Source of the DNA: Mucilaginibacter empetricola
Lineage (GTDB): Bacteria > Bacteroidota > Bacteroidia > Sphingobacteriales > Sphingobacteriaceae
DNA length: 64,000 bases
Direction of reading: 5' to 3'
NCBI RefSeq assembly: GCF_024808665.1
Contig: NZ_JANUBZ010000006.1
Coordinates: 124,001-188,000, forward strand
Within the stretch, counting starts at the first letter, position 1; every line of letters starts with the position of its first letter. The notes under the pieces were generated by a model, which was not told the DNA's origin, made no database searches, and worked only from the letters and a program-made list of their open reading frames with translations. Both the position numbers and the translations under genes were made by a program. This document shows positions 24,612-50,288 of this stretch, one piece after another.

Positions 24612-25877
24612 CTAAGGTTTTGACAATGAAGTTAAGTTCCAGCTGAGGCCTAAGGCGACACCGGTGGTTTGCAGCCTAACCTGGCTGTATCCAATATTTG
24701 TTAGCGGAAGTTTGAGATATGGTTGCAGCATAATGCTAACCTTTGAATTAATCCGGTGCTCATAAGTAGCATTAAAATTGGCTACCCCAAGGAAGTAACT
24801 ATTGCTGTTTGGCACTGTATAGTGACCAGGGGTAAGCGCGGGATCGGCATAATTAAAGGTATAGCTTTCATGAAGCATGATATATGTTGACAGGCCTGTG
24901 CCCAGTGATATTTTATTTTGGTGCTTGTTATAAATCTGATACCCTACGTTTAGCGGAATGTCGAACATCCGGCAGTCGGCAACAACGTTTGATAGCTGTT
25001 GCGCAGGCTGGTAAGCCAGGTGGTACTCGCCATACTCAGCCGAATAAGGTTTTACCGAATAAATAGCGCCAGTGCTTATCGTTAGCTTTTTAGTAATATT
25101 GGCCGAAAATGCTACACCTACGTTGGTGCCCAGCTTACTTTGCTGAAACGATCCTACACCGTTTGCATCAGGCGCCGCCAAAATGGTTAATGCATACTGC
25201 GGCCTGAAAGCTGGCTTTTGTTTTGAAATAGTTTTGCCATCACGCACTACCGGCGTTATAACATTTTTATTAGGATATTTTACAGCGCTTACATTTTGAT
25301 CAGCAAGCCCCTCCTGATTAAAGGCATAAGCCGGGCTTACAGCGGTTAGTGTTTTTTTGTTGTACGATGTTGCCGATATAGTTAGATCATTTGATTTAGT
25401 TGCAGCCAAATCATTTGATATTGATGCTGATGAGCCTGTTCCGGTGTTATGGCGGGAACCGGTGGCAGATAAGGTAAAGAACGATTTGCTTTCATTACTG
25501 CTTTTGCCTGGCTGGGAATTATCGGCATAGCTTTTAGGAAGCGGTTTGTTTTGTTTGACACCTTCTGGTTGCCGCGCGGCCCCGCCGTTAATACCGGTGT
25601 TTGCGTTTGGATGTTTGCTTACAGCTTGCATATTATTCTGGCTGTTTTTAACATTAGTTTCCGGTCTGAAAGCCCACCAACCCAAAAATAACAGCAGCAA
25701 TGCAGCAACGCTGCCTAAAACGGGTAGCCAAAAAATAATACCGCGCCGTTTTTTTTGCCCATCGAGCATGTCCTCGAGAGAATCCCAATCCTCCTCCCTG
25801 AACCCGGCCTCGTTAGCCGGATCCTGAAGTTTCTTACTGAAAAGATCGTCCAGATTTTTATCCTTCTCGTTGTTCAT
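24612..25877 (-). CDS. Anti-sigma-factor-like membrane protein with C-terminal barrel-like domain
   Basis: A 421-residue protein in three parts. Residues 1-43 are charged and cytosolic with DLFSKKLQDPANEAGFREEDWDSLE-type helices, the position where anti-sigma domains bind sigma. Residues about 45-67 (IIFWLPVLGSVAALLLLFLGWW) form one membrane helix. A low-complexity Ser/Asn/Thr linker runs to about residue 205. The C-terminal 210 residues look like an outer-membrane PorT/OmpW-type barrel (KLTISTGAIYSVKPY, NVGYQIYNKHQNKISLGTGLS). Its start overlaps the sigma gene by 4 nt. Role as cognate anti-sigma is inferred from position and topology. Confidence 0.75.
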   Translation of the reverse strand: MNNEKDKNLDDLFSKKLQDPANEAGFREEDWDSLEDMLDGQKKRRGIIFWLPVLGSVAALLLLFLGWWAFRPETNVKNSQNNMQAVSKHPNANTGINGGAARQPEGVKQNKPLPKSYADNSQPGKSSNESKSFFTLSATGSRHNTGTGSSASISNDLAATKSNDLTISATSYNKKTLTAVSPAYAFNQEGLADQNVSAVKYPNKNVITPVVRDGKTISKQKPAFRPQYALTILAAPDANGVGSFQQSKLGTNVGVAFSANITKKLTISTGAIYSVKPYSAEYGEYHLAYQPAQQLSNVVADCRMFDIPLNVGYQIYNKHQNKISLGTGLSTYIMLHESYTFNYADPALTPGHYTVPNSNSYFLGVANFNATYEHRINSKVSIMLQPYLKLPLTNIGYSQVRLQTTGVALGLSWNLTSLSKP

Positions 25878-26515
25878 TCTCTAATACCTTTATTTAAAAA
25901 TACACCTTGCATGCTTATAGCTTTTAACGCAACTATAGAAGTATGATCGGTGCCGCTGTTGTAATTAATGTTTTTTGCAGGTACATCAGCATTTAATATC
26001 ATTTGTTTTAGTTTCTGCCTGGCCTTATGCAAGTTTGATTTTGATGTGCCGGCATTAATATTTAACATTTCGCCAATTTCTTCGTGCGAATATCCCTCTA
26101 TCGCAAAAAGGTTAAAAACTGTTCGGTAAGCCTGCGGCAATTGTTGAACCATTGCCAGCAGATCATTATAGCTCAAATTCCTGTCGGCCATTTCGCCATC
26201 ACTTATATGCTCGGCGGCCTCTAAATCTTCGTTGTAAGCCATTTTAAGGTTGGCCCGGTAAAAATCGATAGAAACATTCATCATAATTTTACCCAGCCAG
26301 GCTTTAAAGGGCCTTGTGGTATCAAAGCTTCCAATATGGGTAAAAACTTTAAAAAACCCCTGATTCATCACCTCCGCAGCCTCATCCCTATCATTTGCAT
26401 AACGCAGACATATCCCCATAGCAAAGCCATAAAAAGCCTTATACAGCATTTTCTGGCATTTTCTGTCCTGTTTTATACAGCCCCTGATCAGTTGATGTAA
26501 CTCTTCTTCTCCCAT
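25874..26515 (-). CDS. ECF RNA polymerase sigma factor
   Basis: A 213-residue sigma-70 family protein with only regions 2 and 4. Region 2 spans about residues 20-95 (YKAFYGFAMGICLRYANDRDEAAEVMNQGFFKVF, then FKAWLGKIMMNVSIDFYR). Region 4 spans about 125-180 (LPQAYRTVFNLFAIEGYSHEEIGEMLNI with the HTH, then SKSNLHKARQKLKQMI). About 30 extra residues follow. It heads a minus-strand operon with the anti-sigma-like, YceI and DUF5777 genes. A GGCAACC-N16-CGTG signature lies 52 nt before its start and recurs before the neighbouring polysaccharide-type genes, implying autoregulation and control of that locus. Confidence 0.92.
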   Translation of the reverse strand: MGEEELHQLIRGCIKQDRKCQKMLYKAFYGFAMGICLRYANDRDEAAEVMNQGFFKVFTHIGSFDTTRPFKAWLGKIMMNVSIDFYRANLKMAYNEDLEAAEHISDGEMADRNLSYNDLLAMVQQLPQAYRTVFNLFAIEGYSHEEIGEMLNINAGTSKSNLHKARQKLKQMILNADVPAKNINYNSGTDHTSIVALKAISMQGVFLNKGIRE

Positions 26516-26567
26516 ATGGGTGATATCCCGTTAGCTTTTATAAAAATGTTACCTTATCTGACTACAT

Positions 26568-26594
26568 CACGAAAATAAATAAATAAAGGTTGCC
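26568..26594 (-). promoter_or_regulatory. ECF-type promoter P1 of the sigma operon
   Basis: On the minus strand GGCAACC (26594-26588), 16 nt, then CGTG (26571-26568). The -35 block is preceded by GCA as in three of the other six sites. The -10 lies 52 nt before the sigma gene start. GCAAC-type -35 and CGT-type -10 elements are characteristic of ECF promoters. Confidence 0.8.
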
Positions 26595-26910: not shown

Positions 26911-26937
26911 GGCAACCATTTTAAATAAGCTTACGGT
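26911..26937 (+). promoter_or_regulatory. ECF-type promoter P2
   Basis: GGCAACC (26911-26917) preceded by GCA, 16 nt, then CGGT (26934-26937). The -10 deviates at its third base from the CGT of the other six sites. It lies 43 nt before the first glycosyltransferase gene of the locus. Confidence 0.65.
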
Positions 26938-26980: not shown

Positions 26981-27772
26981 ATGGTTCCGGTTTCGATAGT
27001 TATAATTGCCAGAAACAAGGCTGATATATTAGCCCGCAACATTGCCAACGCCAGGTTAATAACAGATGATATTGTTGTAATTGATAGTGACGGCAGCGCA
27101 GTAAATGAGGGTGATACCCCTGGCTTGCGGATACTGAAAAAAGAGTGGGATGGCTATGGCGCAAATAAAAACAAAGGGGTTGAAGCAGCTAAATATGATT
27201 GGATATTAAGCATTGATGCTGATGAGCTGGCCGATGATGAATTAGTTGCTTCACTTCATCAGCTTAAATATGACGATGCGGGTATTGTTTATGATATCAA
27301 ATTCCGCTCCTATTTTGGGGGCAAGCAAATACGTTTTGGTAGCTGGGGAAGAGATCACCATATTCGATTGTTCAATCGCAAACAGGTGCGCTGGTCAGAA
27401 ACTATAGTGCATGAAACATTAATTTTACGACCGGGTATAACCGTAAAGAAAATTGATGGCCACATGAATCATTTTTCGGTGAATAATGCCGCCGAATATG
27501 AGCGCAAAGGAAGTTATTACGCCCGGCTGAGTGCCAGGAAATATTTTGATAACGGCAGGAAATCGACCATAACTAAATTGTACCTGTCGCCAATTTTTGG
27601 CTTTATTAAAAACTATATTTTCTTTTTGGGTTTTCTGGATGGGCGCGAAGGTTGGGATATTGCTAAAATTACGGTTAAAAATACCTGGCGCAAGTATCAT
27701 TATTTAAGCCAGTTAGAAGCTTCCCCTCAAAAAAAGCAAGCCTATAAGGACAGTTTTGCTATAGAATATTGA
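26981..27772 (+). CDS. Glycosyltransferase family 2, WaaE/KdtX-like
   Basis: A 263-residue cytoplasmic GT-A enzyme. The start PVSIVIIARNKADILARNI, the DIVVIDSD block (about residues 29-36) and WILSIDADELADDELVASL (DAD metal site near 76-78) fit the GT2 branch of lipopolysaccharide core beta-1,4-glucosyltransferases. The N-terminal nucleotide-binding loop is followed by WDGYGANKNKGVEAA. First gene of the plus-strand unit driven by promoter P2. It probably adds a sugar to a lipid-linked or core acceptor. Confidence 0.9.
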   Translation: MVPVSIVIIARNKADILARNIANARLITDDIVVIDSDGSAVNEGDTPGLRILKKEWDGYGANKNKGVEAAKYDWILSIDADELADDELVASLHQLKYDDAGIVYDIKFRSYFGGKQIRFGSWGRDHHIRLFNRKQVRWSETIVHETLILRPGITVKKIDGHMNHFSVNNAAEYERKGSYYARLSARKYFDNGRKSTITKLYLSPIFGFIKNYIFFLGFLDGREGWDIAKITVKNTWRKYHYLSQLEASPQKKQAYKDSFAIEY

Positions 27773-27828: not shown

Positions 27829-29241
27829 ATGAAAAAATTAATTATCCGGAATTTTTCGGTAAATGTAATTCAGCTTATTGTTAACCAGGTTTTAGGATTG
27901 GGCATATTTTATGTGCTGTCAACAGGGCTTGATAAAAACACCTTTGGGCAAATTAACCTCGTACTGGCTATACTGCTTGCTTCATTTAACATTTTATCTT
28001 TTGGGATAGACCAACTGGTTGTAAAAAAAATAGCCGCCGGTGCCAATGCATCTACCATAACCGCCATTTACATTTTTCATGTGCTCGTCTCCGGGTTTGT
28101 TTTTTATGGCTTATTGTTGGCGGCGCATCTTTTTATTCCGAATGTTAACCAGGTTTATAGTTTATTATTACTGATAGGGATAGGGAAGCTGATGATATTT
28201 TTATCGAGCCCGTTTAAGCAGGCAGCAAACGGGTTAGAACGCTTTAAATTGCTGGCCTTTATGCTGGTGATATCCAATATTGTTCGCTGCTTCGGGTTGA
28301 TAATTCTTGCTTTAACGCATGTATTGAGTTTGCACAACATTGTCATAATTTTTATTGCTGGCGATGTTGCCGAATTGCTGTTTTGTCTGTTAGCATTTAA
28401 ACGGGCAACAAAAATTTCATTAAGTTTTAAATGGAACAGAAAAGACTACGGCAAATTGCTTACGGAAGCCATACCACAAACCGGTGTGGTGTTGATTACT
28501 TCGGCACTATCGCGGTTCGACTGGATTTTTATTGGCTTTATGGTTTCGGCAATAAAACTGGCCGAATACAGTTTCGCATACAAAATATTTGAAATATCAA
28601 CCTTGCCGCTAATGGCCATAGCGCCGCTGCTTATACCCCGGTTCACCAAAAAAATTCAGCAAAACGAAATCAACCCAAACGAACTGAAAACATTAGTACG
28701 GGCCGAGATGATTATCGCCGCCCTGGTCGCTTTACTGTTAAATATATGCTGGAGCCCGGTTATTGATTGGATAACCCATGGTAAATATGGGTTGATAAAC
28801 GTTAAAACCATTTTTATTTTAACCCTGTGCATGCCCTTTTTGTACCTCAATAACTTTTTGTGGACGATATATTTTGCGCAGGGGCGTTTAAAGATGATCC
28901 TTACTTCTTTTGTTATTACCCTGCTGGTAAATGTAGTGGGCGATATTGTACTGATTCCTTTTTTTAAAAACGAAGGAGCGGCATTTGCCTTTTTAGCAGC
29001 ATGCCTGGTGCAGGCGGTTTATTATTTAAAAAAGAATGAACTAACCAGCATTAACCATATTTGGCATCCGCTGGCTCTTTGTATTTTATGTGCTTTGTTA
29101 AGCGGCTTTTTAGCAAAAATGTTGTTCGCTACATTATGGGGAGTGTTGCCGGCAAGCATTGTTCTTTATTTAATATTCTTATTTATCGCCCGGCAAATAA
29201 AGCTGGCCGATGTACGGTCTATCCGTCAGTTCTTAGCCTGA
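27829..29241 (+). CDS. Wzx-type polysaccharide flippase
   Basis: A 470-residue integral membrane protein with 12-14 hydrophobic helices spread over its length and the MATE/Wzx-like start NVIQLIVNQVLGLGIFYVLSTGLDKNTFGQINLV. The mid-protein stretch LTEAIPQTGVVLITSALSRFDWIFIGFMVSAIKLAEYSFAYKI is typical of the polysaccharide biosynthesis flippase family. It would move undecaprenyl-linked oligosaccharides across the inner membrane. It follows the GT2 gene by 56 nt, with no own ECF-type promoter seen. Confidence 0.9.
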   Translation: MKKLIIRNFSVNVIQLIVNQVLGLGIFYVLSTGLDKNTFGQINLVLAILLASFNILSFGIDQLVVKKIAAGANASTITAIYIFHVLVSGFVFYGLLLAAHLFIPNVNQVYSLLLLIGIGKLMIFLSSPFKQAANGLERFKLLAFMLVISNIVRCFGLIILALTHVLSLHNIVIIFIAGDVAELLFCLLAFKRATKISLSFKWNRKDYGKLLTEAIPQTGVVLITSALSRFDWIFIGFMVSAIKLAEYSFAYKIFEISTLPLMAIAPLLIPRFTKKIQQNEINPNELKTLVRAEMIIAALVALLLNICWSPVIDWITHGKYGLINVKTIFILTLCMPFLYLNNFLWTIYFAQGRLKMILTSFVITLLVNVVGDIVLIPFFKNEGAAFAFLAACLVQAVYYLKKNELTSINHIWHPLALCILCALLSGFLAKMLFATLWGVLPASIVLYLIFLFIARQIKLADVRSIRQFLA

Positions 29242-29266: not shown

Positions 29267-29293
29267 GGCAACCCTTTCAATTTTTGAATCGTA
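29267..29293 (+). promoter_or_regulatory. ECF-type promoter P3
   Basis: GGCAACC (29267-29273), preceded by GCA, 16 nt, then CGTA (29290-29293). It lies 62 nt before the polymerase-like gene at 29356. Confidence 0.8.
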
Positions 29294-29355: not shown

Positions 29356-31005
29356 ATGACCAACAGCATCGCCAAATTTGACTTTAAAAAACTGCTTAAC
29401 CAGGTAGACTGGCAGCTGCTGTTGTTTTTATTGCTCTTTTTAAATGTAAAGCTGGCCGTAAAAATTCCGGCAATTATTATCATTTACCTGTTGCAGTTTA
29501 ACTTCAGATTTGGTTTCAGTCTTAAAAATTCACGATTGCCACTTTTTTACCCGCTTATTATCATACTGGCTTTTGTAGGCCTGCTGGTTAATGGTATACA
29601 TGGGCAGCCCAGCTACATGGCTGTTTTTTTTACCGGGATAGCATTTTGGTTGCTATGCCTTTTGGCGATTCACCAGGTTAAGTTATCGGTTGAGCGGAAT
29701 AGCGCCGAAGTATTGCATAAAACTATATTGGTGTTTTTTGTATTAAATGCCATCGTTTCGTTTTACAATATCGGCATCATTATTTGGGAGATTGGCAATA
29801 TAAACCCATATCGTTATCAGGGCCAGTATCAAAAATACTTTATCGGCACAGGTGATTATATTAAAGGGCTCACATTTGATATCTGTACCACTAACTCTGT
29901 TTTAAATGCTATAGGTGTAATTTACTTTTTGAACAGAAAAAACGCGGTAATGGTATTGGTTTGCATGGCCGTGCTATTGCTCACCTGCAGCAATTTTTTA
30001 AACCTGGTACTCCTTTTAATTTTGGCTGGCATATTCCTGTTTAAAAGTACCAGGGATCAAAAAAGCCTGATTTTGATTTGTTTTATGTTTTTGGTTGTTT
30101 TTATGGTAAAAGGATCGCCACAAAACAACAACTACACCATTCAAACTTTTAAGAATATTATCCACCCGCCTAGGCCGCCTTTTGCAGAAGTTCCTGTAGC
30201 AGCCGTATCGGATAGTAATACCGGACCCGATGCCCCAAAAAGAGCAATAGCCAAAAAATACCTGGATAGTATTAAAAGACTGAATGAAGCTGCACTGAAT
30301 ATTCCGCTTCAACAAGCAAAGCAAAATATACCGCAAACCGGGCTGGGCCGACTGGTAATTGTTGGACCCGATATAAATACACCACCTTACCAAACACCTA
30401 CCGATACATCAAACGAGCAGCGTTTGTTGCTGGCATTTATTAATAATCATAAAAACAGCCTGGCCCTGTCTGGCAAAGATGTTTACCTCCCCGGTTTGCC
30501 CGGCAAGGCAATTGGGGTAGTACAAACGGTAATGTTTTTAAAGCTGCATCCTATTAAAATGCTGGTGGGCGATGGGGTTGGCAACTTCTCATCAAAGCTC
30601 GCCTTTAAAGCTACCGGTCTTGGATTTACGGGTGGTTATCCTGCTAAATATGCTTACATCAGCAATGAGTTTCTGTTAAATCACCTGGATGTATATCTCA
30701 ATTTTTTTAGCAAAAGAGCTGAGTTGCATTCTTTAACTAACAGCCCCAATTCAGTTTATGACCAGGCGCTTGCCGAATACGGTGTGGCTGGTTTACTTGT
30801 TTTGCTAATTTTTTACCTGGGCTTTTTTGTAAAGCACTATAAAAGCCTTACGTATGGGATTCCACTACTGCTGCTGTTAATGGCCGTTCTGTTTATTGAT
30901 TACTGGTTTGAGCAATTATCAGTCATCGTTTTTTTCGAACTGCTTTTAATGCTCAATATAAAAGAAACTACAACACTCACATCTGCAAATTATGTACCCC
31001 AATAA
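29356..31005 (+). CDS. O-antigen polymerase/ligase-like membrane protein
   Basis: A 549-residue protein with about ten membrane helices, large for the family because of a Pro-rich hydrophilic loop of roughly 150 residues (about 265-410, beginning near IIHPPRPPFAEVPVAA). The C-terminal segment NSPNSVYDQALAEYGVAGLLVLLIFYLGFF resembles the conserved end of Wzy/WaaL proteins, in which loop residues transfer glycan chains. Its end overlaps the next GT gene by 14 nt. Whether it polymerises or ligates cannot be told from sequence. Confidence 0.8.
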   Translation: MTNSIAKFDFKKLLNQVDWQLLLFLLLFLNVKLAVKIPAIIIIYLLQFNFRFGFSLKNSRLPLFYPLIIILAFVGLLVNGIHGQPSYMAVFFTGIAFWLLCLLAIHQVKLSVERNSAEVLHKTILVFFVLNAIVSFYNIGIIIWEIGNINPYRYQGQYQKYFIGTGDYIKGLTFDICTTNSVLNAIGVIYFLNRKNAVMVLVCMAVLLLTCSNFLNLVLLLILAGIFLFKSTRDQKSLILICFMFLVVFMVKGSPQNNNYTIQTFKNIIHPPRPPFAEVPVAAVSDSNTGPDAPKRAIAKKYLDSIKRLNEAALNIPLQQAKQNIPQTGLGRLVIVGPDINTPPYQTPTDTSNEQRLLLAFINNHKNSLALSGKDVYLPGLPGKAIGVVQTVMFLKLHPIKMLVGDGVGNFSSKLAFKATGLGFTGGYPAKYAYISNEFLLNHLDVYLNFFSKRAELHSLTNSPNSVYDQALAEYGVAGLLVLLIFYLGFFVKHYKSLTYGIPLLLLLMAVLFIDYWFEQLSVIVFFELLLMLNIKETTTLTSANYVPQ

Positions 31006-31954
31006 TCCCAAAGTAACGGTTTTAATGCCTGCCTACAATGCGGCCAGGTATATAAGCGATGCCATAAAGTCTGTGCTGGTGCAATCGTTTACTGATTTTG
31101 AATTTTTAATTGTTAATGATGGATCAACAGACGAAACGGAAAAGATTATCCGCTCGTTTCACGATCCTCGTATTGTATTGATCAGCCAGGAAAACAGAGG
31201 AGTAGCCGCGGCACTTAATTGGGGTCTGGCACATGCGCGGGCACCTTACATCGCAAGGTTTGATGCCGATGATATTTGCTATCCCGACAGGTTAAAAATA
31301 CAGTACGATTTTATTACCTCCTATCCGCAATACAGCATCATAGGCTCGGGAGCCGATTACGTTGATGCCGAGGGGCATTTTATTTTTACACTGCATCCGG
31401 CGGGCCATTTGAACGAGGAACTGCAACAGTTAAAATACTCGGTATGCCCTTTTATTCACTCTAGTGTTATGTATAAAAAGGAAGTGGTGATAAATGGCGG
31501 TGGCTATAATGAGCATGCTTATACCTACGAGGATCATTTTTTATGGGTGAACATTTTAAAAAATGAAAAAGCCTGTAACCTGTCACAACAACTGATTAAG
31601 GTGCGCCTTAACCCCGAGTCAATTACCATTGACGAAAAGTGGCGCCCGCGAAAATTCAGAGCTATAAAATATTCAACACTTAAAACACGAAGCATAACAG
31701 CCGCCGAAGGAGATGAGCTGAGCCAGATGGGCGGCAAACAATTTTCGCCGCGAATAAAAGAAGGCTCCTATTATGCATTGTGTGGCAAAAAGTTTTTGCT
31801 CAACAATTTTCAACCCCAAAAGGCCAGGTTGAATATTAGCCGGGCTATCAGCCTGCACCCATTTCGGTTAGATAACTACTTGTTTTATACTGTTAGTTAT
31901 TTCCCGTTCAGTTTTATTAACTGGCTTTATAAAATTAATCTCAAAAGATCTTAA
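30992..31954 (+). CDS. Glycosyltransferase family 2
   Basis: A 320-residue GT-A enzyme with the canonical GT2 start KVTVLMPAYNAARYISDAIKSVLVQSF, NDGSTDETEKII, and ARFDADDICYPDRL, in which DAD near residue 91 binds the sugar-nucleotide metal. A CPFIHSSVMYKKEVV block and YEDHFLWV follow, the latter likely holding the catalytic base. The C-terminal 90 residues are helical and basic, suited to membrane association. Overlaps the upstream polymerase-like gene and shares promoter P3. Confidence 0.93.
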   Translation: MYPNNPKVTVLMPAYNAARYISDAIKSVLVQSFTDFEFLIVNDGSTDETEKIIRSFHDPRIVLISQENRGVAAALNWGLAHARAPYIARFDADDICYPDRLKIQYDFITSYPQYSIIGSGADYVDAEGHFIFTLHPAGHLNEELQQLKYSVCPFIHSSVMYKKEVVINGGGYNEHAYTYEDHFLWVNILKNEKACNLSQQLIKVRLNPESITIDEKWRPRKFRAIKYSTLKTRSITAAEGDELSQMGGKQFSPRIKEGSYYALCGKKFLLNNFQPQKARLNISRAISLHPFRLDNYLFYTVSYFPFSFINWLYKINLKRS

Positions 31955-31978: not shown

Positions 31979-33055
31979 ATGAAGGTAGCTTTTATAACAA
32001 GATCAACATTGTATAGTGTGCCGGGGGGTGATACCGTTCAGGTAGTACAAACTGCCCGGCAATTGGTTGAAATGGGAGTTGATACAGATATTTTACTATC
32101 AAATGCAGAAATAAGGTACGACCGTTATGACCTGCTTCACTTTTTTAACCTGATACGTCCGGCTGATATTTTATACCACAGTAAAAAGGCTAAAAAACCG
32201 TTTGTGGTATCAACCATACTGTGTAATTATAGTGAGTACGACAAATACCACCGCAAAGGTATAGGCGCATTGCTTGGCTGGCTGCCCGGCGATAGTATTG
32301 AATATTTGAAAACCATTGCCCGCTGGATTTTAGGCCGCGATCATTTATCAAGCCTTGATTATACCTGGAAAGGACAACGGCAGAGCATTATTGAAATATT
32401 GAATGGTGCAGCTATGATACTGCCCAATTCAGAATCTGAATCGCGCAGGGTTAAGCAAACTTATTTTAACAAAATAAAATATATGGTGGTGCCTAATGGG
32501 ATAAATCCTGTTTTGTTTAAACCTGATCTGGAACAGAAAAAAGACGATTTGCTGGTGCTTTGTGTAGCACGGATTGAAGGCATAAAAAACCAGATAAACC
32601 TGATAAAGGCGCTCAATAATACTAAATATAAACTGCTTATTATTGGGGCACATGCGCCCAACCAGATTGATTATTACAACGAATGCAAAAGTATAGCAGC
32701 CGATAATGTGAGCTTTGTTGGCCATATCCCCCAAAACGAACTGGTGGCTTATTATGAGCAGGCCAAAGTGCATATTTTACCCAGTTGGTTTGAAACAACG
32801 GGTTTGAGCTCGGTTGAGGCGGCGGTTATGGGCTGCAATATTGTAATAACCGACAAGGGCGATACCCGCGAATATTTTGGAGACGAAGCTTTTTATTGTA
32901 ATCCGGCAGAGCCCGAAAGTATTTTTAAAGCAGTTGAAGCAGCCAGCGCAGCGCCATTTGATGAAGAATTACGCCAGCGGATATTGAAGCAATACACCTG
33001 GAAACATGCGGCAGTACAAACCTTAAAGGCATACCATTTAGCGGCTATTGCATGA
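31979..33055 (+). CDS. Glycosyltransferase family 4
   Basis: A 358-residue GT-B enzyme. The N-terminal Rossmann half begins KVAFITRSTLYSVPGGDTVQVVQTARQL. The donor half has VPNGINPVLFKPD, then LCVARIEGIKNQINLIKAL and LPSWFETTGLSSVEAAVMGCNIV, which includes the E-x7-E type nucleotide-sugar motif. It overlaps the next gene by 4 nt. Part of the P3 unit. Sugar and linkage unknown. Confidence 0.93.
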   Translation: MKVAFITRSTLYSVPGGDTVQVVQTARQLVEMGVDTDILLSNAEIRYDRYDLLHFFNLIRPADILYHSKKAKKPFVVSTILCNYSEYDKYHRKGIGALLGWLPGDSIEYLKTIARWILGRDHLSSLDYTWKGQRQSIIEILNGAAMILPNSESESRRVKQTYFNKIKYMVVPNGINPVLFKPDLEQKKDDLLVLCVARIEGIKNQINLIKALNNTKYKLLIIGAHAPNQIDYYNECKSIAADNVSFVGHIPQNELVAYYEQAKVHILPSWFETTGLSSVEAAVMGCNIVITDKGDTREYFGDEAFYCNPAEPESIFKAVEAASAAPFDEELRQRILKQYTWKHAAVQTLKAYHLAAIA

Positions 33056-38042: not shown

Positions 38043-38043
38043 A

Positions 38044-41484: not shown

Positions 41485-41511
41485 TACGCCCCCAAAAATG
41501 CATTGGTTGCC
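41485..41511 (-). promoter_or_regulatory. ECF-type promoter P5
   Basis: On the minus strand GGCAACC (41511-41505), preceded by GCA, 16 nt, then CGTA (41488-41485). It points at the five-gene radical SAM/methyltransferase unit, with a leader of about 130 nt containing the hairpin at 41381-41410. Its -35 end is 24 nt from that of divergent promoter P6. Confidence 0.8.
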
Positions 41512-41535: not shown

Positions 41536-41562
41536 GGCAACCATTAGGGCGAATGCGCCGTA
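41536..41562 (+). promoter_or_regulatory. ECF-type promoter P6
   Basis: GGCAACC (41536-41542), preceded by ACG as in P4, 16 nt, then CGTA (41559-41562). It lies 52 nt before the methyltransferase gene at 41615 and is back-to-back with P5. Confidence 0.8.
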
Positions 41563-42355: not shown

Positions 42356-43534
42356 ATGATCCTTAATAACTTATTACCGGTAGGTAGCGATGCGATTATA
42401 AATATCCGGATAAATGATGCCAAAATAGCTGAGGTGTCAGGCTCGGTAATTAATAACCCGGCTACTTCTTTAGCGCTGACTTTTGAGAATGCCATTGTTT
42501 TCCCGGGATTAATTAATTCGCACGATCATCTGGATTTTAATTTGTTTCCGCAATTGGGTGATAAGATATATAGCAATTATACAGAGTGGGGGAAATACAT
42601 TCATCAAAATTATAAAACTGAAATAGCGCAGGTGCTAAAAATCCCCGCTGTTTTGAGGGCACAATGGGGCATTTATAAAAATCTGCTATGTGGTGTTACC
42701 ACCGTAGTTAATCATGGTGAAAAACTGGGCACAGCAAGTGATCTCATTACTGTTTTTGAACAAACACATTGCCTGCACTCGGCGCGATTTGAAAAAGACT
42801 GGCGGTTTAAACTGAATAATCCTTTGAAAAGGACTCTGCCGGTAAATATACATGCCGGCGAAGGAAGTGACAGTGCAGCGGCGGAAGAAATTGACCGGTT
42901 AATTAGCTGGAATCTTTTGCGAAAAAAGTTAATAGGTGTACACGCTGTGGCAATGTCTGCAAAGCAGGCCAGGAAGTTTGATGCAATAGTTTGGTGCCCG
43001 CAATCAAACTACTTTTTGCTTAATAAAACAGCTCCTGTTGATATGTTAAGCGAGCATACTACAACGCTTTTTGGAACCGATTCGACACTTACCAGCGATT
43101 GGAATATATGGAATCACCTGCAAACAGCCCGAGAAACTGGCTTATTGAGTGACGCAAATATTTATAGCGGCTTAACAAACCAGGCGGCTGATGTTTGGCA
43201 ATTAAACAGCGGTAAAATTGAGACAGGCAAAGATGCCGATATCGTTGTGGCCAAAAAGAGAGACGGTTTAACAAGTTACGATGCTTTTTTTGCCGTAAAA
43301 CCGGAGGATTTGCTATTGGTAACGCACAAAGGACGGATGAGATTAGCAGATGAAACAATAGCAGCGCAATTGGATAAATCCGTTTTGAAAGGATTTAGCA
43401 AAATAAATATTAATGGAGCTTGTAAATATGTAGAAGGTGATTTGCCACAATTAATCAGCGACATACAGCGCTACAATCCTGAAACAAAATTCCCGGTGAG
43501 CTTAACCCAGCAGTTTGATAAATGTATCGTTTGA
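42356..43534 (+). CDS. Amidohydrolase-superfamily protein
   Basis: A 392-residue metal-dependent hydrolase or deaminase. The first metal site is SHDHLDF (HxH near residue 57), another His is in VNIHAGEG, a later one is in GVHAVAMS and the Asp is in FGTDSTLTSDW, the order seen in the cytosine deaminase/chlorohydrolase branch. The C-terminal beta-sandwich has GKIETGKDADIVVAKK. Unusual for a glycan locus: it may remove an amino or amide group from the modified product. It overlaps the deacetylase gene by 13 nt. Confidence 0.87.
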   Translation: MILNNLLPVGSDAIINIRINDAKIAEVSGSVINNPATSLALTFENAIVFPGLINSHDHLDFNLFPQLGDKIYSNYTEWGKYIHQNYKTEIAQVLKIPAVLRAQWGIYKNLLCGVTTVVNHGEKLGTASDLITVFEQTHCLHSARFEKDWRFKLNNPLKRTLPVNIHAGEGSDSAAAEEIDRLISWNLLRKKLIGVHAVAMSAKQARKFDAIVWCPQSNYFLLNKTAPVDMLSEHTTTLFGTDSTLTSDWNIWNHLQTARETGLLSDANIYSGLTNQAADVWQLNSGKIETGKDADIVVAKKRDGLTSYDAFFAVKPEDLLLVTHKGRMRLADETIAAQLDKSVLKGFSKININGACKYVEGDLPQLISDIQRYNPETKFPVSLTQQFDKCIV

Positions 43535-44535
43535 ATCGAAAAATATTATCCAGGATAAATCGTGAAGGCAAGTATATGTTTAGGGAAATAGGACATAGGC
43601 TGGGCGGTTATGAGCAATTTTACAGGTCTGCAAGGGGAGCACGTATACTAAATTATCATGGCATTTGTTTGGATGATCATTTACGTTTTAATACTATTTT
43701 TTTAAAACTAAAAACGTTTGAGAAACAGTTAAAGTTTTATAAGAAGCATTTTAATGTTATTTCATTAGATGACCACTATCAACAGAAATTCAGTAACGAC
43801 AAGTTTAATATCTGTTTGACTTTTGATGATGGCTTTGCCAATAATTATAAATACGTTTTGCCGCTGTTAGCGCAATATCAAATTCCGGCAACGTTTTTCA
43901 TAACTGCCATAAAAGCCGAAGGCGGGGATATTTTGTGGAATGATTTTTTGGCTATAGCAAGTAAATATGGTCCATCAAAAATCACTTTAAAAAATGAAGT
44001 TTATTATAAAGGTGCTGGTCGCAAATATATTTCTACCCAAACGGGTATAAGCATAAATGACCAACTCCTTTATACCGGAATAGTAGAAAAGAATGAGATG
44101 ATGGCTGAATTATATCCGTTGGTGCCTTTTAAATTAAACGCTGAAGAAGAAGATTATTGGCTGCAAATGACTGAAGAACAAATAAAAGATTTAGCCCGGT
44201 CGCCTTGGGTAAACATAGGTGCACATGGCTTTTATCATAATGATTTATCGAAAATAAAGATAGCCGATGCAAGCGATGAAATGCGGGCTTCAAAATTATA
44301 TCTCGAAAACTTAATTGGTAAACCGGTTACAAGCCTGGCTTTTCCTTACGGGACATATACGACGTTAGTAGTTGAAAAGGCGAAAGAAATAGGATATAAG
44401 CAGTTACTGGCACTTGATTTTTATAACGAAGAGGATAAACATGATTCCGCTATGCGCGAACGATTTACTATTAATCCACTAATAACAACCAATAACCAGA
44501 TGTACGCTACAATAAAGGGCCATTATGAATACTGA
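43522..44535 (+). CDS. Polysaccharide deacetylase family protein (NodB-like)
   Basis: A 337-residue enzyme with the carbohydrate esterase 4 landmarks: CLTFDDGFANNYKYVLP (TFDDG, catalytic Asp pair near residue 101), WVNIGAHGFYHNDLSKI (the metal-binding HxxxxH) and SLAFPYGTYTTLVVEKAKE near the end. No signal peptide is evident, so it acts inside the cell, perhaps on a nucleotide- or lipid-linked N-acetylated sugar. A 70-residue insertion separates the first two motifs. It overlaps its neighbours by 13 and 11 nt. Confidence 0.9.
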   Translation: MYRLNRKILSRINREGKYMFREIGHRLGGYEQFYRSARGARILNYHGICLDDHLRFNTIFLKLKTFEKQLKFYKKHFNVISLDDHYQQKFSNDKFNICLTFDDGFANNYKYVLPLLAQYQIPATFFITAIKAEGGDILWNDFLAIASKYGPSKITLKNEVYYKGAGRKYISTQTGISINDQLLYTGIVEKNEMMAELYPLVPFKLNAEEEDYWLQMTEEQIKDLARSPWVNIGAHGFYHNDLSKIKIADASDEMRASKLYLENLIGKPVTSLAFPYGTYTTLVVEKAKEIGYKQLLALDFYNEEDKHDSAMRERFTINPLITTNNQMYATIKGHYEY

Positions 44536-45475
44536 TAACCGGGAAAATGAATATTTTATTGAAAGGCTGACGGAAAACAATCTGGCAGACATAGAGGAAT
44601 TACATGCTGCCGTTTATGGAAAAATGCCGCCGCCTGGTTTCTTTTTTAAAAAGTACAATACTGCCTTTACGGGTGTAGATTATATAGGCTATATTGCATA
44701 CAAGCCCGATGGACTGCCCATTGCTTATTACGGCGTTATTCCCTGCTTTATAAAAATTGATGATAAATTGGTGCTTTCGGCGCAGTCGGCAGATACCATG
44801 ACGCATCCCGGCTTTCGCTTTAAAGGTTTATTTGTTGAATTATCAAATCTTACCTTCCAATTATGCCGGGATAACGGTATTAACCTGCTTTTCGGTTTTC
44901 CTAATCAAAACTCAATACATGGTGCGGTAAATAAATTGCATTGGCAAGCAACAGACCAGATGGCGTGTTTTGTAATTCAGTCGGGCCGTTTTGCGTGGCA
45001 TAAGATTTTCGACAAGCTACCCTTTTTAACAGGGGTCTTTTCCGCTTATCAGAAAAAGCAAATCAGCAAATACGTATTGGCGCAACAGGGCATTGCTAAC
45101 TCGGTATTTGAAGATGGCTTTGCAGGAGTTTACCGCGATAATAATTACCTGAATTATAAAACTTATACCCCTAATTATGTAGTTAAAGCAGGCAATTCGA
45201 TATTATGGATAAAGATAGGTGCCACACTCGTAATAGGGGATATTTTAATTAAGTCGGCCGATTTTGATGATATGATGCATCATCTGTTGAAATTGGCCCG
45301 CAAACTTGGGATAGCAGAAGTGTATTTTCATACAAGTACCGGGACAGCCTTGCACAGTTTGTTTTTAAGCAGATGGGAGCCGATACCATCCTTTGCGGTT
45401 TTGTTTCAGGATTTTAAGGGCGATATAGAAATTGACAAAATAAAATTTACTTCGGCGGACATTGATACGTTTTAA
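44525..45475 (+). CDS. GNAT-superfamily acyltransferase of a glycan locus
   Basis: A 316-residue protein with a GNAT fold in its first 190 residues: FIERLTENNLADIEELHAAVYG, then AYYGVIPCFIKIDDKLVLSAQSADTMTHPGFRFKGLF with the acetyl-CoA loop at HPGFRFKG. The second half looks like a degenerate duplicate. Proteins of this layout are common in Bacteroidota polysaccharide and radical SAM clusters and may acylate an amino sugar. Translationally linked to both neighbours, following the deacetylase; together they could replace one N-acyl group by another. Confidence 0.8.
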   Translation: MNTDNRENEYFIERLTENNLADIEELHAAVYGKMPPPGFFFKKYNTAFTGVDYIGYIAYKPDGLPIAYYGVIPCFIKIDDKLVLSAQSADTMTHPGFRFKGLFVELSNLTFQLCRDNGINLLFGFPNQNSIHGAVNKLHWQATDQMACFVIQSGRFAWHKIFDKLPFLTGVFSAYQKKQISKYVLAQQGIANSVFEDGFAGVYRDNNYLNYKTYTPNYVVKAGNSILWIKIGATLVIGDILIKSADFDDMMHHLLKLARKLGIAEVYFHTSTGTALHSLFLSRWEPIPSFAVLFQDFKGDIEIDKIKFTSADIDTF

Positions 45476-45476
45476 G

Positions 45477-46394
45477 ATGAATAAGTTAATACGGAAATTA
45501 TTTTTCAGAGGAGCTAAAATAACAACCTTTTTGGTGACCAGGCTCGCCGAAAACGAGGTGAAAGAAACAGTATTTTTAAAAAAAGGGAAGCATGTTTTCG
45601 ATATAACAAAAAATCACGGTATGATTTGCCTCGATCCCTTTTGCATGGCGGCATGGCTACCCGATGATAAACTGAATTTGATTGCCCCGGATGAGGTAAC
45701 AATACAATTTAAAAAAGCGAATAAATTAAATGCAGTTATCAAGGTATCTCTTATTGAAAAAATTGCAACAGAAAAGGGGGCGCTGCTTTTGTACAAAATT
45801 GAACAGGTAAGCAACTACCAGTTAAACGTTTTGCACAGGCTGGTGTTTTTCGCCTATTTATTGCGGTCTCCTAAAAATACCTATCAAAGCCGCAAGGTAA
45901 TAAGTGCGCTTTATTCGTATCCACGAAATATTATTATAGTGTCTTATCAGGATGAAAATTATTACAATATATTCCCAATGGATATACACAGTTACCTGGA
46001 AGAAGAAGGCTTGTATATTTTAGGATTAAGGACTACCAATATAACCCTCGGAAAAATTCTGGAAGCTAAAAAAGTGCTTGTTTGTGATACCGACCAGATA
46101 GATATTAACACGGTTTATAATTTGGGTAAGCATGCAAGTAAATCGCCAACACCCAAAGACCAGCTGCCTTTTAAAACTGCAGAAAGTGAACTATTCGGGT
46201 TTCCGGTGCCTGATTTTGTGGGTTCGTATAAAGAAATTGAAATTATTCATCACAGAAAAATGGGTTTTCATATGCTGATGCTGGGTAAGGTGGTTAACTC
46301 AAAAAAAATCAGGGAAAACACAGCTTCCTTTTACCACGTTGGTTTTTTGCAGTTTCAAAAAAGCGACTACAAAAGCGTAGAGGCAGTTTATTAA
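45477..46394 (+). CDS. Unrecognised protein, possibly a flavin-reductase-like split barrel
   Basis: About 305 residues from the ATG at 45477, which follows the upstream stop by one base (a start at 45462 would overlap it). No signal peptide or membrane helix. The C-terminal half, with SYPRNIIIVSYQDENYYNIFPMD, YILGLRTTN, ESELFGFPVPDFVGSYKEIEI and FHMLMLGKVVNSKKI, resembles FMN-binding split-barrel flavin reductases: a serine/tyrosine turn after the first strand and a terminal G-K-V. The N-terminal 120 residues match nothing I know. A reductant for the radical SAM enzymes would make sense but is inference. Confidence 0.6.
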   Translation: MNKLIRKLFFRGAKITTFLVTRLAENEVKETVFLKKGKHVFDITKNHGMICLDPFCMAAWLPDDKLNLIAPDEVTIQFKKANKLNAVIKVSLIEKIATEKGALLLYKIEQVSNYQLNVLHRLVFFAYLLRSPKNTYQSRKVISALYSYPRNIIIVSYQDENYYNIFPMDIHSYLEEEGLYILGLRTTNITLGKILEAKKVLVCDTDQIDINTVYNLGKHASKSPTPKDQLPFKTAESELFGFPVPDFVGSYKEIEIIHHRKMGFHMLMLGKVVNSKKIRENTASFYHVGFLQFQKSDYKSVEAVY

Positions 46395-46404: not shown

Positions 46405-47499
46405 ATGATGAAATATGTTTTTGTAAACTATAATTACTCGCCCAATTTTACTTCGCCTTTAGCCTGGTTTAAACGAACTGAGGGGTATTCGGGGGTGTTG
46501 GAATCATTGAGTAAACACCATACTGTAATTAATATAAAACAACTTAATTACACAGGCAATGTGATTCACAATGGTGTTGATAATAGGTTTGTTGATTTTG
46601 GCGAAGGGAAAACCTATTTCCCATTCAGGATACATCGGTATGTTAAAAATTTACACGCCGATGTGGTTTTTGTGCACGGTTTGCATAATTCTTTACAGAT
46701 AATACAATTGCGACTAACACTAGATAAAAGAACCAGGATAATAGTTCAGCACCATGCCGAAAAGCCGTTTAAGGGTATCAAACGTATTGTTCAAAAGGTT
46801 GCGGATAATTGTGTTGACGCCTATTTATTTTCTTCGCATGCGTTGGGCGCAGAATGGGTTAAAAACGGCAATGTTGCATCAGGAAAAAAAATACATGAGG
46901 TAATGGAGGTATCGTCTCTGTTTTATCGGGATAAAAATGTATCATCAAAATTAAACCTGACGGGCGACTCAGTATTTTTATGGGTAGGGCGGCTAAATGC
47001 AAATAAAGATCCGTTGAATGTGATAAAAGCATTCTTAAAGTTTGCAAAAAGTAATCCCGATGCACGTTTGTACATGATTTACCATACAGAAGAATTGATT
47101 GATGAAATAAAAGCCATTTTGGAAATATATGCCGATAATTGCCCGGTTATACTGGTCGGAAAAGTACCACATGACGACCTGCTTTACTGGTTTAACAGCG
47201 CCCGTTTCTTTATTTCAGGCTCGTATTATGAAGGTGGCGGCACAGCTTTGTGCGAGGCCATGTCATGCGGCTGTGTGCCTATAGTGACTGATATTCCCGC
47301 TTTTAGAATGATAACGGATAATGGTGATTGTGGCTTGCTGTATGAGGCAGGCAGTGAAGTAGCACTGCTGGATGCCCTGCAGCAAACAACAGCAATGGAT
47401 AGGGCTGCAAAGCAGGAAAAGTCGCTGGCCTATTTTAAATCGAATTTATCGTTTGATGCTATTGCCAGCCGCATTCACGAGGTTTCGTTATCGCTGTGA
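46405..47499 (+). CDS. Glycosyltransferase family 4
   Basis: A 364-residue GT-B enzyme. The donor half is clear: SVFLWVGRLNANKDPLNVIKAFLKF near residue 190, VILVGKVPHDDLLYWFNSARFFISGSYYEGGGTALCEAMSCGCVPIV with the E-x7-E motif, then FRMITDNGDCGLLYE. The N-terminal half is divergent. Last gene of the P6 unit; its last 25 nt overlap the tail of the convergent GT4 gene. Confidence 0.91.
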   Translation: MMKYVFVNYNYSPNFTSPLAWFKRTEGYSGVLESLSKHHTVINIKQLNYTGNVIHNGVDNRFVDFGEGKTYFPFRIHRYVKNLHADVVFVHGLHNSLQIIQLRLTLDKRTRIIVQHHAEKPFKGIKRIVQKVADNCVDAYLFSSHALGAEWVKNGNVASGKKIHEVMEVSSLFYRDKNVSSKLNLTGDSVFLWVGRLNANKDPLNVIKAFLKFAKSNPDARLYMIYHTEELIDEIKAILEIYADNCPVILVGKVPHDDLLYWFNSARFFISGSYYEGGGTALCEAMSCGCVPIVTDIPAFRMITDNGDCGLLYEAGSEVALLDALQQTTAMDRAAKQEKSLAYFKSNLSFDAIASRIHEVSLSL

Positions 47500-48575
47500 T
47501 CAATTTCATCGGCAAACAGGCTGATTATATTTTTGGCCACCTGTTGTATCGGAAACATTAATACATGATCGTGCCCCCGGCGGGTATTTTTTAGAATGGA
47601 TAAAACTTCCTGGTTCATTTCATCCCGGTTTTTTACCACATAATGATGCCTGTAGTTTTTGTTCATCGGCTTACAAAATGAAACCACATGCGCGCCGGCG
47701 TACAAAGCTTCGGCCATAACAGATCCAAAACCTTCATAATTTGAAGTATGCAGAAATACTTTTGAACGTTGCATCAAAGCCAAAACTTCCTTTTGAGGCA
47801 ACTCGCCGGTAAATGAAATATTATTATTCAGCCGAAGCGAATTAGCCAGGCTTTTCAAAAGTTCCATTTCCGGGCCATTGCCACAAATTACTGCCTTAAT
47901 TTCGGGCATGTAAATTTTGAGCGAGGCAATAGTTTGTATAAATAAATGATATTGCTTTAATGGTATTAATGAACCTGCGCCCAAAACGTCAATATCTCTT
48001 TTCGCATGGCTATCTTTAAACATTGATGTATCAATGCCAACCGGTACAATATTGGCGGGCAATAAGCCATAATTTTTCCGCACCTCGTTAGCTACAAAAT
48101 CTGATAAGGCAATCAGCGAATCGGCATTGGGTTTTATCCAGTCAAAATATTTATTCCCCTTTTTAGCATCCTGGCCCAAAATCCAACTATAATGCTTTAG
48201 TCCATGGGTTTTAGCAAAGTAATGACCAATAAAAGCGCATTCGCCCATCCAGAAGCTGAGCAGGCCAAAAGGGTGGTATTTGTTTTTTAATTTTCGTAAA
48301 ATAAACCAAGCCTTTGTCCATGTTTTTAGCCGGGATAATTGTCCTTCATCTTTGCCACCAATGGTAATTACTTTAACGCCGTTCCATTCATATTCTGTCG
48401 ATACATGAGGGTAATGGAATGTTAATACAATAATCTCCAACCCGGGGCAGATCTCCTTAAGTGCTTTTACAAACAGTTGCTGCGGAGGAATACAGGCGGT
48501 ATCGGCTTCATTTGCCGGGAAGCCGGGGGTTAGAATAACCAGTGTTTCAAGCGTATGCTCCATCCAATAAAACAA
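47475..48575 (-). CDS. Glycosyltransferase family 4
   Basis: A 366-residue GT-B enzyme (a start at the ATG at 48563 is also plausible). N-terminal half: TLVILTPGFPANEADTACIPPQQLFVKAL. Donor half: DVLGAGSLIPLKQYHLFIQTIASLK, AVICGNGPEMELLK and FLHTSNYEGFGSVMAEALYAGAHVV with the E-x7-E motif. It follows the ABC transporter gene with a 29-nt overlap in the P7 unit, so its product is probably the substrate, or part of the substrate, of that transporter. Confidence 0.92.
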   Translation of the reverse strand: MFYWMEHTLETLVILTPGFPANEADTACIPPQQLFVKALKEICPGLEIIVLTFHYPHVSTEYEWNGVKVITIGGKDEGQLSRLKTWTKAWFILRKLKNKYHPFGLLSFWMGECAFIGHYFAKTHGLKHYSWILGQDAKKGNKYFDWIKPNADSLIALSDFVANEVRKNYGLLPANIVPVGIDTSMFKDSHAKRDIDVLGAGSLIPLKQYHLFIQTIASLKIYMPEIKAVICGNGPEMELLKSLANSLRLNNNISFTGELPQKEVLALMQRSKVFLHTSNYEGFGSVMAEALYAGAHVVSFCKPMNKNYRHHYVVKNRDEMNQEVLSILKNTRRGHDHVLMFPIQQVAKNIISLFADEIDHSDNETS

Positions 48576-50256
48576 CTTTATTACAAAACGATAAACTCTC
48601 TTTGTTGTGCGTGATCATAATGATCATTTTTCCTTTTTTTGCCAGTAGCTCCAGTTGGGCAAGCATTGCTCTTTCGGCAACATTATCAACTTCGCCAAAC
48701 GGTTCATCCAAAATCAATAAATCAAAATCATGATATAAGGCCCGGGCCAGCATTATACGCTGCCGTTGGCCACCGCTAATGTTCTTGCCATTTTCGGTAA
48801 TGATCTTATTAATACCTTCAGGATATTGGTCGGTTAAGCTATCAATGCCGCTAAACGAAAGGGCTTTGGCTAATCTATCTTTATCATATACGTCGTCAGT
48901 TAACGTTACGTTTTTTAAAATGGAATCATTTACAAAAAAAGGCTGCTGTTTAACATAGGCCATCTTTTTCCAGTAGCTTTTACGGTCGGCGCTATTGGTA
49001 ACGGTATGGTTAATGGATATGGTGCCGCTATCCGGCTCCAAAAAACCAAGCAATAAATTAATAATAGTTGTTTTTCCCATTCCCGATGGACCGGAAATGC
49101 CAAGAAAATCGCCTGGCGAAACCTCGAAAAAAAACTTGTTCAATATTGGTGCGCCCTGGTAATTAAAATCAACGTACTGAAATTTTATAAAATCGATATA
49201 GGTTGCTGCGGAGGGAGCTGTTTCAGATGTTTTTTCGTCAATTGTAAGATCATTGAGTGTAAACTCATAGGTTTTAATTTGCCCTGCGCTGTTTAATATT
49301 TTAACAATGCCAGGGATAATTTTGTAAGATGCGGCCATAAAAACACCTACATCAAGCAAGCCGATGCCATGATTATTTGAGGCCCATTTATTAATGGTAA
49401 TTAAAATCAAGAAACCCAATATGGCGAAAACTTCTATAAGGCGTGAGGGTAATCCCTGCAGCGTTTGCTGGGTGGCAATGTAGTCGTTCAGTTGTTTTTG
49501 GTAACGATAATAGCGGTTGGTAAAGAAATCGTGTTTATCGTAAACATTGCTTTCAACATATCCGGATAAAGACTCTTTTAAATATTGTAAAGTAAGCTGG
49601 CTGGTTGATCTCGAATTGCTTCGTACGTCTTTTAGCTTCCTTTTAATAAAATATCCCAGCAAAACAACAGGAGGAAGTAACAATAGAAATAAAGAAAGAA
49701 ACAGCGATGGATGATAAAAAAGGATACCGATAATAGTAAAAATAATCAACGCGCCCTGCGAAATTATTTGCTGAATATTGGTGAGGATATAGTTGCTGAA
49801 TTCGATAGGCTGCTGACTTATTTTGCGGATATAAACCGAAGAATCAACATGCACAAATTTGAAATAATCATCTTTCAGGTAATGCCAGATGTTGCGTTTT
49901 GACAAACGCGAGGCCACCGCATAGAAAAAGGTATTCTGCGATTGGGTAACAGCGTATGCCGCCAGATTTTTTACCACATACAGAACAAAAAAAAGGCTGA
50001 TAAGCCATAAAGAATTTTGATTGAGCCAGGATGGCAAGAAAGTATATTTATTAACGGCATTATTGCCAGTATAAAGATTGATTATCAAAAGCAGAGCGCC
50101 AAGAAATGCAATATCCAAAATGCCGATAAGCAGATCGAATACAATCTGGAAACAAAGCCTGCGCTTTTCCCTGCGATTGAGTATGCTTAATATGGATGTT
50201 ATTAAATGTTTCAAAATGCTATTATTCAGGCAGCTTATAGTTTTAAGCTTGTACAA
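48547..50256 (-). CDS. ABC exporter with fused membrane and ATPase domains (MsbA/PglK type)
   Basis: A 569-residue half-transporter with about six membrane helices in the first 330 residues and one ATPase domain: Walker A GPSGMGKTTIINLLLG, signature NISGGQRQRIMLARAL and Walker B LLILDEPFGEVD. Size and neighbouring GT4 genes suit a lipid-linked oligosaccharide or glycolipid flippase such as PglK. The start is uncertain: the ATG at 50256 lies only 5 nt from the -10 of promoter P7, so either the mRNA is leaderless or translation starts at an in-frame TTG at 50214 (MKHLITSIL-type start, 555 residues). Confidence 0.92.
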   Translation of the reverse strand: MYKLKTISCLNNSILKHLITSILSILNRREKRRLCFQIVFDLLIGILDIAFLGALLLIINLYTGNNAVNKYTFLPSWLNQNSLWLISLFFVLYVVKNLAAYAVTQSQNTFFYAVASRLSKRNIWHYLKDDYFKFVHVDSSVYIRKISQQPIEFSNYILTNIQQIISQGALIIFTIIGILFYHPSLFLSLFLLLLPPVVLLGYFIKRKLKDVRSNSRSTSQLTLQYLKESLSGYVESNVYDKHDFFTNRYYRYQKQLNDYIATQQTLQGLPSRLIEVFAILGFLILITINKWASNNHGIGLLDVGVFMAASYKIIPGIVKILNSAGQIKTYEFTLNDLTIDEKTSETAPSAATYIDFIKFQYVDFNYQGAPILNKFFFEVSPGDFLGISGPSGMGKTTIINLLLGFLEPDSGTISINHTVTNSADRKSYWKKMAYVKQQPFFVNDSILKNVTLTDDVYDKDRLAKALSFSGIDSLTDQYPEGINKIITENGKNISGGQRQRIMLARALYHDFDLLILDEPFGEVDNVAERAMLAQLELLAKKGKMIIMITHNKESLSFCNKVVLLDGAYA

Positions 50257-50261
50257 TAGGT

Positions 50262-50288
50262 TACGGCAGCAGCAGAAATTGAGTTGCC
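50262..50288 (-). promoter_or_regulatory. ECF-type promoter P7
   Basis: On the minus strand GGCAACT (50288-50282), preceded by ACA, 16 nt, then CGTA (50265-50262). One base differs from the GGCAACC of the other six sites. It points at the ABC exporter/GT4 unit and marks the right-hand edge of the putative regulon. Confidence 0.7.

Follow-up and report, generated by a model that had tools for sequence, protein, structure and literature searches.

We analyzed a 64,000-nt stretch of the 5.83-Mb genome of Mucilaginibacter empetricola (the window), in which a gene for a sigma factor of the extracytoplasmic function (ECF) type and the adjacent genes for surface-glycan synthesis are preceded by promoters of a single family, RGCAACC-N16-CGTNAT. 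The promoters are conserved among relatives and co-occur with the sigma gene, and the protein encoded next to the sigma factor has the predicted layout of a Dma-type anti-sigma factor. It is very probable that these promoters belong to a surface-glycan regulon under the control of an autoregulated Das-type sigma factor whose tether passes through both membranes.

Judging by the orientation of its genes and the gaps between them, the stretch 23102-50256 consists of seven units, presumably operons, each headed by one promoter site (Table 1). Unit 1 contains the sigma factor, dma, YceI, and DUF5777 genes; unit 2, GT2 and Wzx; unit 3, a 549-aa protein, GT2, GT4, and O-antigen ligase; unit 4, a nucleotidyltransferase gene alone; unit 5, radical SAM, methyltransferase, two radical SAM genes, and methyltransferase; unit 6, methyltransferase, amidohydrolase, deacetylase, GNAT, a 310-aa protein, and GT4; and unit 7, an ABC exporter and GT4. 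The initial annotation of this DNA described seven sites of the form GGCAAC(C/T)-N16-CG(T/G). All seven were recovered at their positions, with a 16-nt spacer, in intergenic DNA and facing a gene, and they do cover every unit, one site each, as had been proposed. The claim concerning the sigma operon was right about its own promoter but overlooked the probable anti-sigma gene and two further genes of the operon.

On both strands of the 24.4-kb locus 0.26 matches were expected from their frequency in the rest of the genome, and seven were observed (Poisson 1e-8, for a pattern picked post hoc). A looser pattern had eight matches in the window, compared with 1.5 on average over 100 shuffles, one of which reached eight. 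When the spacer of GGCAACC-Nk-CG was varied from 8 to 27, 13 matches were obtained in the window, seven of them at k = 16. This last number includes a match within a gene, at 41729(+), which reads CGAA and was rejected as a member of the family. In the whole genome, GGCAACY-N16-CGK matched 68 times and the reversed pattern 52 times. The genome-wide count is near background. Among 61 matches outside the locus, 53 fall in mechanically defined open reading frames (ORFs) and eight are intergenic, whereas none of the seven sites in the locus is inside a gene. The eight intergenic matches elsewhere precede genes of unrelated kinds, as judged by reading their translations, and a large scattered regulon was rejected. 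The extended motif RGCAACC-N16-CGTNAT matched four times in the genome, three times within the locus, and its reversed control once. The sole match off the locus (G000:C10:224535-224563) lies 36 nt upstream of an MBL-fold-like gene and is probably due to chance; in the nearest relative (G023), no equivalent of this site was present among GGCAACC-N16-CGTV matches (5 of 5 listed).

Conservation was studied in loci retrieved with the sigma protein. Of 77 loci, mostly from Mucilaginibacter, 75 were used (L053-L127); L128 and L129, from Proteobacteria and Streptomyces, were excluded from orthologue counts. Genes with at least 40% identity and a full upstream region were treated as orthologues, and the DNA between positions −320 and +60 relative to each start was scanned. 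GGCAAC-N17-CG was found upstream of the sigma gene in 55/69 cases, GT2 in 42/50, the 549-aa gene in 40/42, and the nucleotidyltransferase gene in 19/19, while other spacers (N12-N23) before the same genes yielded 0-5 matches and the reversed motif none. Upstream regions of six operon-internal genes, used as controls, contained the motif once in 221 cases (dma 0/39, YceI 0/47, Wzx 0/32, GT2b 0/39, GT4a 1/28, Wzy 0/36). Right-half genes inside operons were present in just 1-3 of the 75 sigma-centered loci. Two additional sets, each with 30 loci and counting that of M. empetricola, had the motif before 23/30 ABC exporter genes, 26/30 methyltransferase genes, and 30/30 radical SAM genes. All four methyltransferase misses read AGCAACC with unchanged spacing, and the seven ABC misses comprise five AGCAACC sites, one site with a 17-nt spacer, and one locus with no site, so that nine of the 11 misses are AGCAACC. 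With the pattern relaxed to RGCAACC-N16-CG, 57/69 sigma genes and 45/50 GT2 genes are preceded by a site. The motif as initially defined is slightly too strict in its first letter. In relatives, orthologues of every unit are preceded by the motif with a 16-nt spacer, and the site postulated for autoregulation of the sigma gene is widely retained.

The consensus of the sites is (c)AGGCAACC(T/A)TT...CGTNAT. It has the AAC-type −35 element, the CGT-type −10 element, and the fixed spacing of ECF promoters, with GT2 sites often carrying CGAT or CGGT instead of CGT. At sigma and GT2 sites, the information content does not exceed 1 bit over most of the spacer; more of the spacer is retained among relatives at 549-aa and nucleotidyltransferase sites. 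The base after CGT depends on the promoter: G in 54/55 sigma sites, A in 39/39 distinct 549-aa gene sites, and C in 19/19 nucleotidyltransferase sites. The 42 exact GT2 sites read CGAT (23), CGTG (15), or CGGT (4). This promoter-specific base may set promoter strength.

The 213-aa sigma factor has regions σ2 (PF04542, residues 24-89) and σ4 (PF08281, residues 118-169) only, as is typical of ECF factors, and scores above the TIGR02937 cut-off. With a Dma-type gene adjoining its gene, the factor may belong to the ECF21 group. To relate the factor to the motif, GGCAACC-N16-CGTV was counted against a reversed control in 61 genomes of the genus, grouped from search listings (weakest accepted E values ~7e-74 for ABC, 2e-76 for methyltransferase, and 8e-76 for sigma). 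The 37 genomes that carry an ABC or a methyltransferase orthologue had 470 matches versus 262, an excess of 5.6 per genome; the sigma orthologue was found in 36 of them, the exception (G018) being 61% complete. In 19 genomes with a sigma orthologue that lack both the ABC and methyltransferase genes, 136 matches versus 107 were counted (+1.5 per genome). In the five genomes without a sigma orthologue, the numbers were 24 and 30 (−1.2 per genome). The proposal that one promoter family is tied to one sigma factor is well supported by co-occurrence, and we infer that this factor recognizes the promoters.

The 19 sigma-only genomes, defined by the missing ABC and methyltransferase genes, include one (G009, 58% complete) with left-half genes. 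The sigma, dma, YceI, and DUF5777 genes occur together in 19/19 of the loci, the exact autoregulatory site is present in 17/19, and one locus (L266) contains GT2, Wzx, and the 549-aa gene. A locus of the ABC/methyltransferase group (L267) has sigma and dma with no YceI or DUF5777 match alongside. In a further genome of the sigma-only group (G038, locus L251), the sigma gene and a nucleotidyltransferase homologue (43%) that has a CGTC-type site point away from each other.

Sites are also maintained when genes move. The ABC exporter gene keeps its site at 242 kb (G027), 469 kb (G040), and 1.8 Mb (G026) from the sigma gene, and at locus L105 sigma and dma are followed directly by the genes for the ABC exporter and GT4. 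Mucilaginibacter belongs to a class other than Cytophagia. In Dyadobacter frigoris (L109), a member of that class, a sigma gene whose product is 71% identical adjoins GT2, Wzx, 549-aa, GT2b, Wzy, and nucleotidyltransferase genes, and the promoters there have CGAT, CGTA, and CGTC sites, variants shared with Mucilaginibacter. We read this copy as a transfer of the regulon together with its promoters.

The product of the gene that overlaps the sigma gene by 4 nt was modeled with AlphaFold using 36 homologues, selected from an initial alignment of 45 sequences by dropping the Dyadobacter gene and eight distant sequences. The model shows two N-terminal helices (5-18 and 28-39), one hydrophobic helix (50-69) that would sit in the inner membrane, about 130 residues of low confidence (~80-213, pLDDT <50 over most), as expected of a disordered tether, and a C-terminal barrel with strands between 228 and 414 (block pLDDT 74-97). 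The barrel matches the structures of OmpA (9fzd, TMt 0.68) and NspA (1p4t, TMt 0.78); PF13568 is detected in 15/36 members, and the window protein scores under its curated cut-off. Such a layout is predicted to span both membranes. From its gene position and layout, the protein is predicted to bind the sigma factor through its N-terminal segment.

The sigma factor could, in principle, be free or otherwise regulated, the second gene coding for an unrelated outer-membrane protein. The N-terminal helices are modeled at low confidence (block means 52-59), and the Dyadobacter regulon does without Dma: the gene after sigma, considered as a candidate, looks like a sulfatase. The order helix-helix-transmembrane helix-tether-barrel, however, fits the description of Dma proteins (PMC13088901), all 36 sequences share residues D10 and W31, and sigma and dma are neighbors in 20/20 loci (those of the 19 sigma-only genomes and L267); the Dyadobacter locus is an exception. 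This alternative is very improbable. With a sulfatase-like gene next to it instead of dma, the sigma factor of Dyadobacter may have no brake or be controlled in another way.

It is also conceivable that another ECF factor, or a transcription factor, reads the sites, the adjacent sigma gene being merely one target. The M. empetricola genome codes for six further related sigma factors (30-44% identical, E up to 1e-20), and crosstalk between Dma systems is suggested for Bacteroides thetaiotaomicron in the same paper (PMC13088901). Two of the six paralogues have a neighbor that matches the Dma protein (BLAST), and the neighbor of a third is similar at the N terminus by eye. Yet none of the six is preceded by a match to the motif, the five genomes without the sigma orthologue show no motif excess though paralogues are present, and in Dyadobacter the sites appear to have arrived together with this very sigma gene, which leaves recognition by another factor improbable. 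Two other genomes (RYN_308 and MAG_BO124) contain, in addition to the main pair, second sigma-Dma pairs (L102, L104; 68-70% identical) without a GGCAACC site, likely paralogues with another promoter code.

The clustering of sites within 24 kb might alternatively reflect local duplication of one promoter, of which the motif would be a remnant rather than part of a working regulon. The spacers differ among the seven sites and vary at many positions in relatives, while the boxes and the 16-nt spacing are fixed; the spacers of the 549-aa and nucleotidyltransferase promoters are conserved in part. Together with the persistence of sites at genes located far away, this makes a duplication remnant scarcely credible. 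Several observations weigh against a sigma-driven regulon as such. Motif matches upstream of DUF5777 were found in 7/44 cases, all located within the YceI gene. Twelve of the 69 sigma relatives have no motif (three paralogues, M. rivuli with a 17-nt spacer, Dyadobacter, Sunxiuqinia, and six distant sequences), and the site is absent at GT2 in 5/50 and at the 549-aa gene in 2/42 cases. The excess in sigma-only genomes is not significant (P 0.07). All P values assume independent genomes and a pattern chosen in advance; neither assumption holds, and relatedness is uncorrected. In Dyadobacter, not only is the gene after sigma something other than dma, but the sigma site is degenerate. Finally, one of the six paralogues of M. 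empetricola (L275) has TGCAACC-N16-CATC upstream, which agrees with the motif in eight of 11 letters. The autoregulated Das-type factor nonetheless remains, in our view, the very probable explanation.

The initial annotation also assigned a complete glycan pathway to the single sigma factor. Shared regulation is supported by the comparisons above, but completeness is not: a scan of 29 ORFs revealed neither an initiating sugar-phosphate transferase nor a Wza/Wzc-type exporter, and genes elsewhere must therefore contribute. The product may be an O-antigen-like glycan, a glycolipid, or a protein-linked glycan relying on such genes. The B12-type radical SAM proteins, methyltransferases, deacetylase, and acetyltransferase point to a heavily modified product.

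Inferred from the anatomy of the locus, the mechanism would operate as follows. Dma would hold the Das-type sigma factor at the inner membrane. Its short cytoplasmic segment would bind the factor and lead, through a single helix in the inner membrane, into a long disordered tether that crosses the periplasm and ends in an OmpA-like barrel lodged in the outer membrane. The sigma factor would be freed by a signal acting on the barrel or the outer membrane and would then transcribe unit 1, which encodes the factor itself together with Dma, YceI, and DUF5777, as well as units 2-7, whose products would make a modified surface glycan or glycolipid and export it. The promoters are all of the RGCAACC-N16-CGTNAT type, and the base after CGT may grade their output. 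Since the autoregulatory loop would also produce more Dma, the switch would be reset.

The Dma class has been described only recently. Dma1/Das1 and Dma2/Das2 of B. thetaiotaomicron have the same arrangement, an ECF sigma gene followed by an anti-sigma gene whose product has an N-terminal sigma-binding part, a transmembrane helix, a disordered tether, and a C-terminal barrel; loss of Dma2 upregulates its own operon, and outputs include vesicle production, nigD1, and polysaccharide-utilization loci (PMC13088901). In contrast, the factor studied here is predicted to act directly on a biosynthetic surface-glycan locus through seven promoters, and the companion genes are YceI and DUF5777 rather than DUF4858 and DUF4943; direct promoters of Das factors are not given in the parts of the paper covered here (PMC13088901). 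In what is accessible of the respective reports, a CGT box at −10 is likewise an ECF signature in Flavobacterium psychrophilum SM6, where targets include type IX secretion genes and no −35 letters are given (PMC9723704); the Porphyromonas gingivalis PorX/PorY/SigP system also places an ECF factor over a surface pathway, but with a two-component system as input, instead of a tethered anti-sigma factor, and type IX secretion as output (PMC4800418); and ECF factors influence surface polysaccharide loci in B. thetaiotaomicron capsule regulation, though through expression-level links with no shared promoter family over one locus (PMC12596196). M. pedocola is described as an exopolysaccharide producer (PMC6260751). 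In the literature searched on Mucilaginibacter, Bacteroidota ECF regulons, and Dma anti-sigma factors, judged by titles and abstract openings, no report on this regulon was found.

Table 1. Features of the predicted regulon. Positions are those of the window; promoter distances are counted between the four-base −10 block and the start of each listed ORF.
Feature	Position	Strand	Remarks
Sigma operon promoter	26568..26594	-	GGCAACC-N16-CGTG; 53 nt
GT2 gene promoter	26911..26937	+	GGCAACC-N16-CGGT; 44 nt
549-aa gene promoter	29267..29293	+	GGCAACC-N16-CGTA; 63 nt
Nucleotidyltransferase gene promoter	34434..34460	+	GGCAACC-N16-CGTC; 36 nt
Radical-SAM/methyltransferase operon promoter	41485..41511	-	CGTA; 136 nt
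Methyltransferase-to-GT4 operon promoter, divergent	41536..41562	+	CGTA; 53 nt
ABC exporter promoter	50262..50288	-	GGCAACT-N16-CGTA; 6 nt
DUF5777 beta-barrel protein, sigma operon	23102..24040	-	PF19089
YceI-like protein, sigma operon	24056..24607	-	PF04264
Probable anti-sigma factor (Dma-type)	24612..25877	-	AlphaFold model; barrel matches OmpA/NspA
ECF sigma factor (probably Das-type), 213 aa	25874..26515	-	Sigma70_r2, r4_2; TIGR02937
GT2 glycosyltransferase	26981..27772	+	PF00535
Wzx-type flippase	27829..29241	+	PF01943
549-aa protein, membrane-spanning, putatively Wzy-like	29356..31005	+	no Pfam match
GT2 glycosyltransferase (GT2b)	30992..31954	+	
GT4 glycosyltransferase (GT4a)	31979..33055	+	
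O-antigen ligase/polymerase	33052..34386	+	PF04932
Nucleotidyltransferase-domain protein	34496..35452	+	PF01909, weak
Methyltransferase	35761..36582	-	
B12-binding radical SAM protein	36579..38060	-	PF02310, PF04055
Radical SAM/SPASM protein	38044..39078	-	
Methyltransferase	39085..39822	-	
B12-binding radical SAM protein, heads its operon	39832..41349	-	
Leader-RNA hairpin	41381..41410	-	covariation; between promoter and radical-SAM operon
Methyltransferase	41615..42355	+	
Amidohydrolase	42356..43534	+	
Polysaccharide deacetylase	43522..44535	+	PF01522
GNAT acetyltransferase	44525..45475	+	
310-aa protein	45462..46394	+	no family match
GT4 glycosyltransferase	46405..47499	+	
GT4 glycosyltransferase	47475..48575	-	
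ABC exporter (MsbA/PglK-like)	48547..50256	-	PF00005; under curated cut-offs of MsbA, PglK

The ABC exporter gene probably does not begin at the listed TTG, given that the −10 block is only 6 nt away. Homologues begin to align at residues 8-15 of the listed ORF, and the true start is probably a TTG at residue 15 (50214), which, as read from the DNA, would place the promoter ~48 nt away. The 549-aa protein was found in 7/151 genomes searched family-wide, all of its own genus, as well as in the Dyadobacter locus. A 563-aa ORF at 20900-22591 (-) has no Pfam match; by our reading, its sequence resembles a glycoside hydrolase.

Separately from the sigma regulon, the 136-nt leader of the radical-SAM operon was found to contain a covarying hairpin. 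Across 11 aligned loci, among them that of M. empetricola, standard pairs make up 93.6% of pair cells, and both partners have changed in 8/10 pairs. Of five measures, four were reached by none of 500 shuffles and the fifth (further pair types) by 13; slid registers are 23-59% paired. Comparable stems occur in many, not all, of 30 loci. No T-run was seen by eye at the hairpin, and Rfam gave no matches at E 0.1 over 22000-52000. The hairpin is perhaps an antitermination or leader-regulation element.

If true, the proposed regulation would form a closed loop linking the state of the outer surface to the making of that surface. We regard as a serious possibility, one that we would not yet call probable, the broader picture in which a one-protein switch from the outer membrane to RNA polymerase commands the whole glycan pathway, surface state and synthesis form a loop, outputs are pre-set by the base after CGT, and the wiring has moved between Bacteroidota classes as a unit. 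The locus provides a defined promoter code and a regulon of seven promoters, and the 61 genomes form a natural series in which some have the regulon, some have sigma but no right half, and some have neither. Sensing by a barrel-tethered anti-sigma factor would thus become directly testable in soil bacteria, and the promoter code would predict the locations of other such regulons.

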